From the IMG/VR virus record IMGVR_UViG_3300017963_003226, positions 1 to 21,063 of that record: DNA of 21,063 nucleotides. The stretch is one strand, 5' to 3'. The notes under the pieces were generated by a model. The model was not told the DNA's origin, did not search any database, and was given only the letters and a program-made list of their open reading frames with translations. How positions within the stretch are numbered: the stretch's first letter is position 1; the number at the start of each line of letters is the position of its first letter. This stretch comes from a virus. The translations under genes and the position numbers were made by a program. Below, one piece after another: positions 2,541 through 18,905 of this stretch.

Positions 2541-3578
2541 CTACTGGTAGAACACCGCCTGGCGGCGCAAGTCATCGCAGCACATGTTCCACGCCATGCT
2601 GACGATTACCGCGAAGCAGTGCGGCTGCTTGTCGAGCCGCTTGACCTTCGTCCGCTTCATGAACCAGTTCTTGAGGAACTTGGCGTAGAAGTGGTTGAAG
2701 TCGATCATGTACAGCGGGTTGTCCGTCTTGCTGTCGAAGTACGGAACGTACCTGATGCCCGCACCGCGGAACACCGGCATCTGCGTGCTCAGGTCGAACC
2801 CCAGCGAGTCATTGTTCGACTTCGCCACGTTCTTCAGAGCGTACTTCGTCTCCCAGTTGGTGAAGATGCCGCGGCTGTATCCGCTGCGGCCCATCCCGGG
2901 CTCCGGAGCCGGCGCGATCCACTTCGTCTTGTCCGCGGCCTGCTCCATCATGTACACAAGACCGGTCGACGCGGTGTCGGTGACATCCGTGTACTGGCCG
3001 GTGAAGTTCTTGTGCCTCGCGTAATCGGTGCTGGAGATACCAGCACGACCAGCAGAGAAACCGGAGGGGTCAACGCCGTTGAAGCCCAGCGTTGCGGCCT
3101 TCGTGATCCAGTACTCGACACCAAACGGAGTGTCATTGTCGCTTGACGAGTCGGGCTTGCCCCACACATCGGCCTCCGACAGCTCGATCATCGACGTGAT
3201 CATTCGAGAATTTTCGGTCTGTACGAGATCGAAAAGCTCTTCGGGGCCATTGTTCATGGCCTCTTCGCGCTCGTCGTAGACCATGTTGCCATCGGTGTAG
3301 GTCCAGGGGACCGTGCCGACGACGGCAGCGTCATCACGGGAATAATCGATCTCATTGAAGAGACCGACGTGCTGAGCGCTGTGATTGTGGTCCATGATGT
3401 ACCGGACCGTGATTCCACGACCAGACTTCTGCTGCTCACGCCTCGTGCGAGCGATCTCGTTGAAGCCGACGTGCTCCTGCAGGTCGGTCATCTCGCCGAT
3501 CCACTTGCCCTTGTTCAGGTGATTCAGGGTCGCGAGAACAGCATCAGGCATCTGTTCAGGAGTAAGTACCTGACCCAT
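2541..3578 (-). CDS. Major capsid protein
   Basis: A 345-residue protein that would form the capsid shell. It starts with a polar N-terminus (MGQVLTPEQMPDAVLATLNHL) and has the alpha/beta composition usual for HK97-fold capsid proteins. The C-terminus (IVSMAWNMCCDDLRRQAVFYQ) resembles a terminal segment common to many phage capsid proteins, in which a strand ends in a CxxRRQ-type motif. Size is normal for the class. It lies after portal and scaffold-like genes and 31 bases past the scaffold stop, the expected order. The ATG at 3578 follows AAGGA seven bases upstream. Assignment rests on position, size and family resemblance rather than a diagnostic catalytic motif. Confidence 0.8.
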   Translation of the reverse strand: MGQVLTPEQMPDAVLATLNHLNKGKWIGEMTDLQEHVGFNEIARTRREQQKSGRGITVRYIMDHNHSAQHVGLFNEIDYSRDDAAVVGTVPWTYTDGNMVYDEREEAMNNGPEELFDLVQTENSRMITSMIELSEADVWGKPDSSSDNDTPFGVEYWITKAATLGFNGVDPSGFSAGRAGISSTDYARHKNFTGQYTDVTDTASTGLVYMMEQAADKTKWIAPAPEPGMGRSGYSRGIFTNWETKYALKNVAKSNNDSLGFDLSTQMPVFRGAGIRYVPYFDSKTDNPLYMIDFNHFYAKFLKNWFMKRTKVKRLDKQPHCFAVIVSMAWNMCCDDLRRQAVFYQ

Positions 3579-4668: not shown

Positions 4669-5034
4669 CTACCCGGAGAATGCATCACCATATCCACCAT
4701 CGAAATCAGTGGCACCGACCAATTCGGCATACTTCTTCTTATGCTCCTTGGAACGCCATTCAGGACGCCCTCTCTCGTCGAAGTGAGTCGGGACGCCGTG
4801 CTTATCAGCGAATTCCATATACTGCTTGCTCTGAGTCGGGTGCACCGCCAGTGCGTTAGACTTCATGGGCCAGCACGACGGCGTGTCTCGACCGCGAGAC
4901 GCAATCTCTGCTCCTAGATGTCTCTCGCAGACGACCCCATCGTCGAGTGTGATTGTACGAGGTGCTTCACCACATGGATACTGACGCTCGATCAACTCCT
5001 CAGTCTCCGGGTGCTCGTATAGGAACCTCGCCAT
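4669..5034 (-). CDS. Conserved phage protein between portal and scaffold
   Basis: A 121-residue protein. Near the N-terminus Cys21 and a CERH motif (Cys36, His39) suggest a reduced zinc-ribbon-like element similar in outline to FmdB-type ribbons. A central SNALAVHPTQ segment and a C-terminal pattern of the type GVPTHFDERGRPEWRS...Y...DFDGGYGD follow. From memory, the combination of an A-VHP-Q motif with a terminal GGYGD recurs in small proteins in this slot of many tailed phages; their function is unknown. The ATG at 5034 overlaps the portal stop by one base (TAATG), and its own stop merges with the scaffold ribosome site, so the three genes are translated together. Confidence 0.65.
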   Translation of the reverse strand: MARFLYEHPETEELIERQYPCGEAPRTITLDDGVVCERHLGAEIASRGRDTPSCWPMKSNALAVHPTQSKQYMEFADKHGVPTHFDERGRPEWRSKEHKKKYAELVGATDFDGGYGDAFSG

Positions 5035-6803
5035 TACCCGACCGCCCTTCCAGCTGCAGCCGCCTCCGCCGGCTGGACCTTTCCGCCAAGCAACGTCTGC
5101 ATCAACGAGCCGTCTTTCCCTGCGCGAGTCGCGCCCGGCCGATTGATTCGCACATATTTCCGAGTCGTCGACGATGGCTTCGACACCGGGATTGGATTTC
5201 CAACAGGCCCATCGGCTTGCTGAAACTGATTAGGATCGAGCGCAACGATGAGCTGATCCAACTCAGGAAGATTCGAATAGTCGCCAAGAATATCGTTCAA
5301 CCGCCTGACGTCGAGCCCAAGTCCCTGCTGCTGGAAGAACGGCTGCAGTGGGATATAGAACTCGTTGATGATGCCCCTGATCTTCTGGAGCTTTGTAGAC
5401 GGGTTGTCATCACGCATCGAATGCGGATTGATCGAGAAGTTGAAGTCAAGGAAATCCCCCTGCCGAGTCTCTGGGGTCCACTTGACCGCGATGTAATCGC
5501 CAACTCCGGGGATCTCCTTTTGAAGCGTTCGCTCACGGACAGGATCAGTCCACTCGTACCACGATAGCTGACGAAAGATGCCACGGGTAAACTCGGCCAT
5601 CGCATCTTGCATGTCGGCGAGCTGAGCATTAGCGCTGTTCGAAAGAAGCTCTTCCTGACCGACAGTGTCGCTCTGCGGAGACAGACCACCGAGAGTATCG
5701 AGGTTGCCCGCTGCCCAGGAAAAGATGTCCTTCACCTGCACGAATGTGGCAAGTACTTGCTGGTCTACCCCGCCAACTGATACCTCTTCCGGCTTCTGCC
5801 CATTCCAGAAGATACCATCGCCATCCGAAGCGGCCTTGAATCTCTTGGCGCCCTCCTCGTCACTGAAGGCGGCGACACGCTTTTGGTTTTGTACCTGATG
5901 AGCCAGTCTTCGGAACATCCCGTTGGCAAGCTCATGCAGATTTCGCACAGCAGCGAATGGAGGGAGCGGCATCGCATTATCAGGGACATCGTTGTACCAC
6001 AGCGAGTGGTACGGCCCGTCTTCCGGAGCGTCGAAGTCGATGACCTCGAGTGCGCGCTCGGCCTTGTTGACGACGTAGGTCACGAGCTGGTTGCGCTTCG
6101 GCAGCCACACGTCCTGCATGGTGATTCGATCGGCGGCATTGTCTTCGCCGGAGCCAGGCGCATGGCTCAAAGCCTCAGCACGCTCAGCGCCATGATCATC
6201 AGTCATGCCGAGATCACTCGCAGCAAGGCCGAGTTTTTCCCACGCACCGGGGTACCTCAAGTCGAATTCGTCTCGAGGCAAGTAGTACATGTCACCTTCG
6301 AACATCGGGTCGCCCGCCGAACGCGCGGACATGTCACACACGTAATCGTCGAAGCTGACCTTCGCGATGAACGGCTCAGTCACGTCGACCATCTCGCCGG
6401 AAACTTCCTGCTTCCCCATGTACTCGAGGCCTACTTTGAGAATTACCTTCGGCGAGAAGAGCGAGTCGGCCGCGGCACGGCGTAGGAGCTTACCAAGATG
6501 AGTGTCCTTCGCGGTGTCGTCGCAGGCCAGCTCGAAGTTCTTGGCCAGGGGGCGCAGCGATGAATGCGGGGTAGTAATCTTTGCGGTAGGAGCACGCACG
6601 GCGAGTTGCCGGACGTAGATGCTCGTGGCCATCGACAGGAAATACAGGTAGACCTTCTTCGCCTGCGCGTCGTCACTGTATTCGCTGCCGACGAATGACT
6701 CCAGGAGTCTCTTCCGCTTCTCCCGAAACGGAACGAGCTTGCGATACGACTCACGCACCGCGGAGACGAGCCTCTTGAAGTCTTTCGGCTTCCTCGGGTC
6801 CAT
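5034..6803 (-). CDS. Portal protein
   Basis: A 589-residue protein that would form the dodecameric ring at the DNA entry vertex. The start is placed at ATG 6803 (MDPRKPKDFKRLVSAV) because GAGGAG lies five bases upstream; the open frame upstream overlaps the terminase end and is unlikely to be translated. The N-terminal half has the helical region usual for portals, with YSDDAQAKKVYLYFLSMATS near residue 40, then a long beta/alpha wing and a helical stem region (LDTLGGLSPQSDTVGQEELLSN, about residues 380-410). The C-terminal part after residue 520 is low-complexity and Pro/Gly/Ala-rich. Size and position directly after the large terminase support the call. Confidence 0.8.
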   Translation of the reverse strand: MDPRKPKDFKRLVSAVRESYRKLVPFREKRKRLLESFVGSEYSDDAQAKKVYLYFLSMATSIYVRQLAVRAPTAKITTPHSSLRPLAKNFELACDDTAKDTHLGKLLRRAAADSLFSPKVILKVGLEYMGKQEVSGEMVDVTEPFIAKVSFDDYVCDMSARSAGDPMFEGDMYYLPRDEFDLRYPGAWEKLGLAASDLGMTDDHGAERAEALSHAPGSGEDNAADRITMQDVWLPKRNQLVTYVVNKAERALEVIDFDAPEDGPYHSLWYNDVPDNAMPLPPFAAVRNLHELANGMFRRLAHQVQNQKRVAAFSDEEGAKRFKAASDGDGIFWNGQKPEEVSVGGVDQQVLATFVQVKDIFSWAAGNLDTLGGLSPQSDTVGQEELLSNSANAQLADMQDAMAEFTRGIFRQLSWYEWTDPVRERTLQKEIPGVGDYIAVKWTPETRQGDFLDFNFSINPHSMRDDNPSTKLQKIRGIINEFYIPLQPFFQQQGLGLDVRRLNDILGDYSNLPELDQLIVALDPNQFQQADGPVGNPIPVSKPSSTTRKYVRINRPGATRAGKDGSLMQTLLGGKVQPAEAAAAGRAVG

Positions 6804-10286: not shown

Positions 10287-10631
10287 CTAATTCGTTCGGC
10301 CCTGCTGGCCAGTGCTCGCGTTTTCCTTCTTCAGCTTCTTCGCCTTCAACCACACAAGCGCACCAGTGACCCTCGCCAACGCCGCGGCATTCTCGTCACA
10401 GCCAAACGCCCCGCGCTGCGCCCGGCGTAAACGATCGGCTACGATCGCCAAAAGCGATTCGTTCGTGATTCCGTCGGTACCGAAACGAAGCGTGGTCAAC
10501 TCGGGGATCTTGCGCGGATCAGTAGCCGGTGTCTCGATCAGGTACACGCTGTTCACTTCGCCCGGCTCGTCCACTGTCGCGACTCTCGGGTACTCTTCGC
10601 CTTCCGACAGGTGGCGTGTCAACTCTCGCAT
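10287..10631 (-). CDS. Paralog 2: Acb2/Tad1-hairpin-like small protein
   Basis: A 114-residue protein clearly related to the upstream gene at 10644-11027. Both start MREL, share a YP..VT.DEPG segment, then a G.TNE.LLAIV.DRLR helix (here residues 54-70), a short loop with Cys, and a second helix with NA.AL......A..WL (residues 81-97). This copy lacks the RTRER..RGVEWL end and instead finishes in a Lys-rich tail. The helix-loop-helix end resembles, from memory, the hairpin domain shared by the anti-defence proteins Acb2 (anti-CBASS) and Tad1 (anti-Thoeris), which sequester cyclic nucleotide signals. That link is an inference. The ATG at 10631 follows GAGGAG by seven bases, and the leader matches the paralog's. 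Confidence 0.6.
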   Translation of the reverse strand: MRELTRHLSEGEEYPRVATVDEPGEVNSVYLIETPATDPRKIPELTTLRFGTDGITNESLLAIVADRLRRAQRGAFGCDENAAALARVTGALVWLKAKKLKKENASTGQQGRTN

Positions 10632-10643
10632 CGATCTGCTCCT

Positions 10644-11027
10644 CTACTGCTTGTTCAACCACTCGACTCCACGCATCACTCTTTCGCGCGTCCTCGACTG
10701 TAACCACATCAAGGCCTGCTCGATATTCGTCAAAGCAAGCGCGTTCGACCTGCAAGAAAACTCGCCAGACTGGAATCCACGAAGCCTGTCAATGACGATC
10801 GCAAGAAGGGCTTCGTTCGTCGTCCCGTTATAGCCAGCTTCCTTGACAGGACCCTTCTGGAAGCTCACATGTTGCAACGGCTCCTGCTGAAGCTCCTTGC
10901 GCAATAAGCCCGGAGATCCGAACTCAACCTGATACTCGTGGTTCGCTCCTCCTGGTCCCGGCTCGTCTGTCACGACGATCTTCGGATATTGCTCGTCTCC
11001 AACCAAGTGATTCTTTAATTCTCGCAT
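10644..11027 (-). CDS. Paralog 1: Acb2/Tad1-hairpin-like small protein
   Basis: A 127-residue protein and the first gene of the leftward operon. Residues 17-35 carry a VVTDEPGPGGANHEYQV segment. Residues 68-88 form a helix (NGTTNEALLAIVIDRLRGF), followed by a loop with Cys92 and a long second helix (residues 94-122, NALALTNIEQALMWLQSRTR then RGVEWL). Similar proteins with a TDEPGPGGA start and an NALALT..EEALMWL..RT..R..RGVEGT end are frequent in phages, and I connect their C-terminus to the Acb2/Tad1 hairpin domain. That is inference without a database search. The ATG at 11027 follows TAGGAG by seven bases. The frame stays open upstream to 11165, which is discussed as a finding. Confidence 0.65.
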   Translation of the reverse strand: MRELKNHLVGDEQYPKIVVTDEPGPGGANHEYQVEFGSPGLLRKELQQEPLQHVSFQKGPVKEAGYNGTTNEALLAIVIDRLRGFQSGEFSCRSNALALTNIEQALMWLQSRTRERVMRGVEWLNKQ

Positions 11028-11187
11028 CGATCTACTCCTAATGCATGTCTGGCATCGCATCTTCGTACTGCGGTGTTCCCAGGGATCGGGTGAGTCGGAT
11101 TGATTTCGACAGGGAAAGTCCTGCATAGGAAAGATTGCGTCTTTGGGCATTGTGTCTTCGGGCATCGTGTCCTCGCTCTCTGGACGG

Positions 11188-11215
11188 AATCTAGCTCGCA
11201 ATCGCGGGATGTCAA
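11188..11215 (-). promoter_or_regulatory. Leftward promoter for packaging/head operon
   Basis: Read leftward: -35 TTGACA (11215-11210, perfect consensus), a 16-base spacer, then -10 TAGATT (11193-11188). The predicted start near 11181 would give a leader of about 150 bases before the ATG at 11027. The -35 box lies within a GATGTCAAGGATG sequence, so it includes the GTCAAGG motif repeated elsewhere in this region and could be controlled by the same binding protein. Confidence 0.5.
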
Positions 11216-15755: not shown

Positions 15756-16063
15756 GCACGGCATTCGAGGTCTGCCGGGGATGTATCTTCAACAGCAGAT
15801 GCAAGCGGCAGAAATGCAAGACTCTCCACCCGGAGCGGCCGACGTATAAGGACTGCCAGGGGTTACTTGCAAGCCTGGCCGAGGCTGAGCAGCTCATCAA
15901 GGACATGGCGAAACAGATATCACGCTATCAATTGCAGTTAAAAGAGCGTGATGCAATCGGGCACGCCAATCATGCCCTTGCGATACACAACAAGAATCTG
16001 TCGGAAGAGAATGCCAAGCTTCATGAATTGGTGCTGAAGCTGAAGGCGCAGGCGAGACCATGA
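15752..16063 (+). CDS. Cys-rich N-terminus plus coiled coil, small protein
   Basis: A 103-residue protein. Residues 8-22 contain four Cys in the pattern CxxC-x5-C-x4-C (CRGCIFNSRCKRQKC), a plausible zinc site, with one more Cys near residue 33 (KDCQG). The rest is a long helix (LLASLAEAEQLIKDMAKQIS through NLSEENAKLHELVLKLK) with heptad character. The ATG at 15752 has GAGGAG five bases upstream and overlaps the previous stop. Its own stop overlaps the methyltransferase start, so expression of the two is coupled. Function unknown; a DNA-binding or adaptor role is conceivable. Confidence 0.6.
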   Translation: MSTAFEVCRGCIFNSRCKRQKCKTLHPERPTYKDCQGLLASLAEAEQLIKDMAKQISRYQLQLKERDAIGHANHALAIHNKNLSEENAKLHELVLKLKAQARP

Positions 16064-16644
16064 GCAGGAAAGGTATCGGCGGGCACCACAGCGCTCTGTC
16101 TCACATGCGGACGGGGTCTGAAGACTGGCTGACCCCGAAGTTCATCATAGACGCACTCGGGAAATTCGATCTCGATCCGTGTACCCCGAAGAAGATGCCC
16201 TGGAAGACAGCTCGCAAGAGATACACGAAAGCCGACGACGGGCTATCGAAACCATGGCATGGTCGAGTCTGGTTGAACCCGCCATATGGTCGATCGACTG
16301 CAGCTTGGCTGAGGAAGATGGCCAGGCACAACGACGGTATAGCACTCGTCTTCGCTCGAGCAGAGACCGAGATGTTTCACGAGAGCGTGTGGCCCGTGGC
16401 CACCGGTTTGCTTTTCCTGCGCGGCCGAATCTCATTCATCAAGCCGCCAGGAATCGAGATCGCTCCGAACAGGAGAAACGAGAACGCCGGCGGTCCGTCC
16501 GTGCTCATCGCGTACAATCCTGACAATGCCGTGTTGCTTTCGAGATGCTCTTTGCCTGGGGCGTTCGTAGTCCCATGGAGTGCAAGACCAACAGTTGAAG
16601 GAAGAATGACAGAACTCTGCAAGAAGAACGGAGGCGCGCAGTGA
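16060..16644 (+). CDS. Phage DNA N6-adenine methyltransferase (Dam-like)
   Basis: A 194-residue methyltransferase that transfers a methyl group from S-adenosylmethionine to adenine N6 in DNA. The N-terminal EDWLTPKFIIDALGKFDLDP (residues 21-40) matches the start of the phage Dam family, in which a W-x-TP motif precedes a DLDP motif. The catalytic motif IV is WLNPPYG, with NPPY at residues 73-76. A third conserved piece, ALVFARAET followed by LLFLRGRI.F, completes the fold. The length is typical for this short family, which lacks a separate target-recognition domain. It probably protects phage DNA from host restriction or marks it for packaging or replication. It lies in an overlapping early operon and starts in ATGA. 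Confidence 0.9.
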   Translation: MSRKGIGGHHSALSHMRTGSEDWLTPKFIIDALGKFDLDPCTPKKMPWKTARKRYTKADDGLSKPWHGRVWLNPPYGRSTAAWLRKMARHNDGIALVFARAETEMFHESVWPVATGLLFLRGRISFIKPPGIEIAPNRRNENAGGPSVLIAYNPDNAVLLSRCSLPGAFVVPWSARPTVEGRMTELCKKNGGAQ

Positions 16645-18039: not shown

Positions 18040-18171
18040 ATGGACGAGAAGCAGAGAAAAGAGATCGAAGACAGGGACGATTCCGAGTGGATGACTGCGG
18101 AATTCATCGTCCTGGTCTTCACATTGGTAGCGTTCGCGCTAATGAATATCCTCATGAGGGCGCCACTGTAG
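18040..18171 (+). CDS. 43-residue single-pass membrane protein
   Basis: A charged N-terminal half (MDEKQRKEIEDRDDSEWMTA) and a C-terminal hydrophobic helix of about 17 residues (FIVLVFTLVAFALMNIL) with a short RAPL end, so an N-in or N-out anchored peptide. GGAG lies six bases before the ATG, ten bases after the previous stop. With its neighbour it forms a pair of tiny membrane genes just before the recombinase. Function unknown. Confidence 0.55.
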   Translation: MDEKQRKEIEDRDDSEWMTAEFIVLVFTLVAFALMNILMRAPL

Positions 18172-18185
18172 CGAGCGGAGGACCG

Positions 18186-18905
18186 ATGCCGAAACGAGCA
18201 ATCATCTACACGAGATTTTCCCCGCGCAAAGACGCGGACGAGTCGCAGAGCTGCGAACAGCAGCGTGACGCATGCATCAGGTATTGCGAGCAAAAAGGCT
18301 ACACCATCGATTTGAGAGGGCTGTATTTCGAAGACAGAGCGCAGTCCGGCAAAGAGTCGGACCGCGACGGGCTATGGTCCGCTATTGACGCATTGAGACG
18401 TAGAGACGTGCTGGTCGTTCGTTGGAGACACCGCCTGGCTCGAGACGTGTACCTGTCCGAGGTCATCAAGAGGGCCGTCAAGAAAGCCGGCGCGAGAATC
18501 GAAGCTGCGGAGGAGGGCAACAACGGCAACTCGGCCGACGAAGTGTTCATTCAGCAAGTACTCGCCGCATTCGCCGAGCGCGAACGCAAGGTCATCGCCC
18601 AGCGAACAAAGCACGCGATGAATCGCTATCAACGCGAAGGCCGCATCATGAGTAGGCAGACCCCGTATGGCTACCGACCAGATCCATTGAAGCCCACCAT
18701 GATGATAGAGGACCTCACCGAGCAGGAAATCATTCAGGTCATACTGCGTCTCGATGCAGATGGACTGAGTTCCAGGAAGATCGCTACTGAGCTGGATATG
18801 ATGGGCTACCCACCACGCAACACGGAGGATTGGTCCTTCAGGACGGTAGCGAAGATCATTCAGCGATCGAGGGAGTGGGGGATCGCTATAGGCGAGTCAG
18901 AGTGA
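18186..18905 (+). CDS. Compact serine recombinase
   Basis: A 239-residue site-specific recombinase. Residues 5-12 (AIIYTRFS) contain the nucleophile Ser12 and Arg10; Arg83 and Arg86 in RHRLARD match the conserved catalytic arginines of the resolvase domain, and QQRDAC and FEDRAQSG are further family marks. Residues 150-239 (RQTPYGYRPDPLKP, then SSRKIATELDMMGYPP) resemble the start of the 'recombinase' domain of large serine integrases but the usual zinc ribbon and coiled coil are absent. It is thus longer than resolvases (about 185) and shorter than integrases (above 450). It could resolve, invert or integrate DNA. GGAGG lies four bases before the ATG. The 3' end overlaps rusA, which is read oppositely. 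Confidence 0.85.
   Translation: MPKRAIIYTRFSPRKDADESQSCEQQRDACIRYCEQKGYTIDLRGLYFEDRAQSGKESDRDGLWSAIDALRRRDVLVVRWRHRLARDVYLSEVIKRAVKKAGARIEAAEEGNNGNSADEVFIQQVLAAFAERERKVIAQRTKHAMNRYQREGRIMSRQTPYGYRPDPLKPTMMIEDLTEQEIIQVILRLDADGLSSRKIATELDMMGYPPRNTEDWSFRTVAKIIQRSREWGIAIGESE

Follow-up and report, generated by a model that had tools for sequence, protein, structure and literature searches.

The phage record IMGVR_UViG_3300017963_003226 carries two adjacent genes, of which the first very probably encodes a Tad1 sponge (P0002) and the second its diverged paralogue (P0001). Tad1 soaks up the molecules by which bacterial antiviral immunity raises the alarm; gcADPR/CDN and trinucleotide ligands have been reported to occupy separate sites on it. 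P0002 is an ordinary further Tad1, and the variant copy is the mildly interesting part: judged from its sequence, P0001 has lost most of the known gcADPR/CDN-pocket side and has retained the helical hairpin. The window comprises the whole IMG/VR virus record of 21,063 bases, and the features of the gene pair are located in it as follows.

10644-11027, minus strand: P0002, full-length Tad1 homologue, 127 aa (phmmer, PHROG, AF2/Foldseek, residue conservation)
10287-10631, minus strand: P0001, diverged Tad1 paralogue, 114 aa (PHROG, BLASTP, AF2, tree)
11035-11039, minus strand: ribosome-binding site AGGAG of P0002 (sequence)
10639-10643, minus strand: ribosome-binding site AGGAG of P0001 (sequence)
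11188-11215, minus strand: sigma-70-like promoter TTGACA-N16-TAGATT upstream of the pair (consensus match only)

P0002 was recognised as Tad1 by sequence and by predicted fold. In a phmmer search of solved structures it decisively matched CmTad1 (8kbb, E 2.3e-22) and CbTad1 (7uav, E 1.8e-19), and its matches were essentially to Tad1 only, together with the hairpin of gp184 (8y6v). It belongs to PHROG family 2428 (phrog_2428, E 6e-33), has homologues in 135 matching phage records, and is 50% identical, across 71% of the query, to the protein annotated as Tad1 in Bacillus phage SBSphiJ7. Tad1 consists of four strands and two long helices (PMC12043709), and the AlphaFold2 (AF2) model of P0002 (50-sequence alignment, pLDDT 87) likewise has four strands (residues 2-4, 16-19, 31-35 and 51-56) and two long helices (71-87 and 93-119), giving the order beta1-beta4, long alpha1-alpha2 hairpin and C-terminal tail; Foldseek aligned it with ligand-bound CbTad1 (8kbf) at TM 0.85 and E 7.5e-10. 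Against the Pfam model Acb2_Tad1_hairpin (PF24729) P0002 scored 25.6 bits, just under the curated cut-off of 27, and P0001 gave no match, but this model is insensitive here, as it matches just 12 of 18 relatives at E <= 1. PADLOC and NCBIfam returned nothing for either protein.

Compared with the known Tad1 proteins (CbTad1 7uav/8smd/8kbf, CmTad1 8kbb, SBSphiJ7 and PHROG 2428), P0002 is of equal length, matches the solved chains at E values of about 1e-20, and shares the FQxGPxxE loop, the R..R pair and the RGVE tail. Where at least 70% of 49 aligned relatives have the same residue, P0002 departs only in having Trp for Gly123 and Leu for Thr124, position 123 being Gly in all 49; it retains the residues that the family conserves in loop, helix and tail (His30, Gln57, Gly59, Phe85, Asn95, Arg112, Arg116 and Val121). 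Its identity to the family is 0.62 in the hairpin, 0.37 in the N-terminal domain and 0.52 in the tail. The preliminary description had linked both proteins to the hairpin of Acb2 and Tad1, and had named a profile match to that family and the presence of paired helices as the check. The helical hairpin is indeed common to Acb2 and Tad1, and two long helices are present in both AF2 models; the solved chains and the fold bear out the link and narrow it to Tad1 rather than Acb2. In Acb2 a short N-terminal helix takes the place of the beta domain (PMC12043709), whereas the models of P0002 and P0001 both carry Tad1-type N-terminal strands, which rules out membership of Acb2, and no Acb2 chain was found among the sequence or fold matches of either protein. 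The same hairpin also terminates phiKZ gp184 (8y6v), phrog_22140 and phrog_23843, whose hairpin and tail match P0002 at E 1.4e-8, but these proteins have a long extra N-terminal part and do not occur in tandem.

Although P0001 is by descent a paralogue of Tad1, it does not qualify as canonical. It falls in phrog_2428 (E 1.2e-11), and it matches the solved Tad1 chains over the hairpin only (8kbb, residues 48-103, E 3.6e-6). In its AF2 model (pLDDT 81) there are three strands along with the two long helices, and all 20 of its confident Foldseek matches are Tad1 structures, which superpose well on it only along the hairpin. With beta4 and the FQKGP loop missing, the canonical beta1-beta4 layout is absent and the hairpin remains. 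In P0002 numbering, 13 strongly conserved positions are lost, namely Gly26, His30, Gln57, Gly59, Pro60, Glu63, Phe85, Arg112, Thr113, Arg116, Arg119, Val121 and Glu122, leaving P0001 without most of the conserved pocket-side residues of Tad1; in the beta domain the alignment is uncertain (34% identical), and Tyr30 of P0001 may be the counterpart of Tyr32 in P0002 if a two-residue gap is allowed for. The Gln57-Gly59-Pro60-Glu63 loop has gone through an eight-residue deletion, and Arg112 and Arg116 have become Lys. Conversely, Leu74, Asp80, Arg81, Leu82, Gln86, Gly88, Cys92, Asn95, Ala98, Leu99 and Trp108 are kept, and identity to the family, 0.49 for the hairpin, drops to 0.24 for the N-terminal domain and 0.14 for the tail. 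The gcADPR contacts of CbTad1, which we take to be Phe82, Asn92, Arg109 and Arg113, would correspond by alignment offset to Phe85/Ala71, Asn95/Asn81, Arg112/Lys98 and Arg116/Lys102 in P0002/P0001.

It had also been proposed that the two proteins differ at their ends and may bind different ligands. The end of P0001 is indeed odd, a Lys-rich stretch standing where the RGVEG tail is missing, but RTRERVMRGVEWL in P0002 is simply the usual Tad1 C-terminal tail, slightly changed. That P0001 binds ligands other than those of P0002 is plausible, and such ligands are putative.

The two genes are true duplicates, as the preliminary description had recognised from the motifs that they share (MREL at the start, DEPG, TNE[AS]LLAIV.DRLR and NA.AL....AL.WL), all of which are present in both products. 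BLASTP aligned P0001 with P0002 at 45 of 112 identical residues (40%, E 3e-24), and the second copy was recovered at E 4.8e-17 when the whole 21 kb record was searched, so that chance similarity is ruled out. In a maximum-likelihood tree of 91 sequences the two are sisters, with support of 90/81, which falls short of the tool's strict threshold, and the branch of P0001 is about five times longer (2.58 vs 0.52). Synonymous differences between the two genes are saturated (pS 0.74) and pN is 0.39, from which the duplication appears to be old and the protein to have been constrained for much of that time, although this estimate comes from a single pair and the low pN could stem partly from P0002.

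The arrangement of the pair likewise agrees with the earlier description. The tad1 genes are the first of a leftward run that continues with genes for terminase, portal and major head protein; terminase and head protein were named by PHROG matches, and the portal gene is a putative one, proposed from gene order and from conservation beside the terminase gene. The TAG stop codon of P0002 (10646-10644) immediately adjoins the AGGAG of P0001, which makes it likely that translation of P0001 is coupled to that of P0002. The leader containing the ribosome-binding site is shared as claimed: from Shine-Dalgarno to start, 19 of 20 bases are common to the two genes, AGGAG[T/C]AGATCGATGCGAGA. The promoter-like TTGACA-N16-TAGATT, about 160 bp upstream of the pair, matches the consensus at 10 of 12 positions, and the pattern occurs once in the window and not at all in 100 shuffles. 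The divergent intergenic region contains seven copies of CCTTGACA, on both strands, between 11210 and 12051 (nine in the window, vs 0.60 expected); these overlap with inverted repeats as well as with the promoter-like site of the gene pair, and look like an operator or promoter array. Elsewhere in the window there is a gene for a Dam-type DNA adenine methyltransferase (16060-16644, plus strand; Pfam Dam, E 4e-11; PADLOC orphan MTase), possibly a second, anti-restriction function of the same phage, and one for a serine recombinase (18087-18905, plus strand; Resolvase, E 7e-25), which suggests that the phage is temperate. Rfam and tRNA scans of the 21,063 bases were empty.

Paralogous tad1 genes within one phage are rare, but not unique. 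Tad1 was found at one place per record in the 135 phage records. Of 85 viral records that carry Tad1, 84 have a single full-length copy, accompanied in one of them (G049) by a shorter hairpin protein far from Tad1; a tight tandem is thus ruled out as the norm for the family. The profile scan of viral contigs used an alignment smaller than 18 rows, and the profile search was biased towards pocket-bearing relatives because the conserved stretches used for its patterns take in the pocket loop. The remaining record (L127, IMGVR_UViG_3300016457_000580) shows an apparent tandem that was rejected as an assembly artefact: the contig is palindromic, repeats 459 bp perfectly in tandem and contains an inverted repeat of 3.2 kb, and is likely to be a misassembly that mimics a tad1 tandem. 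A scan with hairpin-motif patterns did reveal two intact tad1 paralogues on the minus strand of one phage contig (L160, IMGVR_UViG_3300034690_000027; 2737-3123 and 4705-5100). Like the present pair these share a strand, but they lie about 2 kb apart, are 68% identical, and both have complete pocket signatures. The same scan yielded Tad1-like proteins with an altered loop or tail, L163 (without the FQxG loop), L155 (without the tail) and L152, which make up a further set of pocket variants. Among the records searched, the present pair is the only case of two closely spaced copies of which one has a degenerate pocket. Conservation of tad1 across this phage group was ruled out: among 23 terminase relatives, many of them fragmentary records, only one has tad1, beside the terminase gene and in a position that differs from the one here, so that tad1 looks like movable cargo in this terminase group.

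What the two proteins do, and with which ligands and in which oligomers, is something that we infer from these comparisons. Tad1 forms hexamers, takes up gcADPR, CDN and CTN, and counters Thoeris and CBASS. By homology, P0002 most likely sequesters gcADPR and CBASS nucleotides: it would assemble through its helical hairpins and take up gcADPR (Thoeris) as well as cyclic di- and trinucleotides (CBASS), and the effectors would stay inactive. P0001 would be made from the same message, right behind P0002, and is most likely a specialised or partner subunit, either with the trinucleotide-type site on its hairpin as the sole site left, or as a component of mixed oligomers that also contain P0002. 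These roles fit P0001 best because the pocket elements are lost and the helices kept, and P0001 alone may not be a working sponge. A trinucleotide-only role is a real possibility, if a somewhat doubtful one. We propose only tentatively, and with considerable doubt, a two-protein Tad1 system, in which the pocket-stripped hairpin subunit would act as a trinucleotide-only sponge or as an obligate partner, broadening or tuning the first protein.

The main rival to a specialised subunit is that P0001 is a tad1 duplicate that no longer functions and is decaying. Its long branch, the disappearance of most conserved pocket residues and the failure to find any close relative of P0001 would all agree with decay, but the reading frame is open and has its own ribosome-binding site, the hairpin is still 57% identical to that of P0002 and is confidently predicted, and pN lies well under the saturated pS. 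In simulations of neutral drift to comparable divergence, only about 2-6% of runs ended with an open frame. We consider decay improbable. A functional P0001 might also have no sponge activity of its own and join P0002 in mixed oligomers, to which it would contribute its alpha1-alpha2 face and in which it would adjust the ligand range or the stoichiometry. The adjacency of the genes, the stop codon abutting the Shine-Dalgarno sequence and the conserved hairpin are all in keeping with this, as is the fact that each Tad1 pocket uses alpha1-alpha2 from the partner protomer (PMC12043709); but the other Tad1 relatives examined have one gene per record, and we regard this version as rather unlikely. 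That both proteins belong instead to a general family of phage helical hairpins that has nothing to do with immune sponges might be suggested by the Pfam results, but it is scarcely credible in view of the full-length matches of P0002 to experimentally characterised Tad1 proteins, its similarity to part of the SBSphiJ7 protein and its Tad1 fold, and for P0002 it is already contradicted.

If the proposed two-protein system is correct, gene duplication would have subfunctionalised a multi-ligand immune sponge. A natural paralogue in which one set of residues is lost and the other part kept provides a ready-made test of part-by-part function, and the pair also bears on whether a sponge for several signals is divided up by phages into specialised copies.
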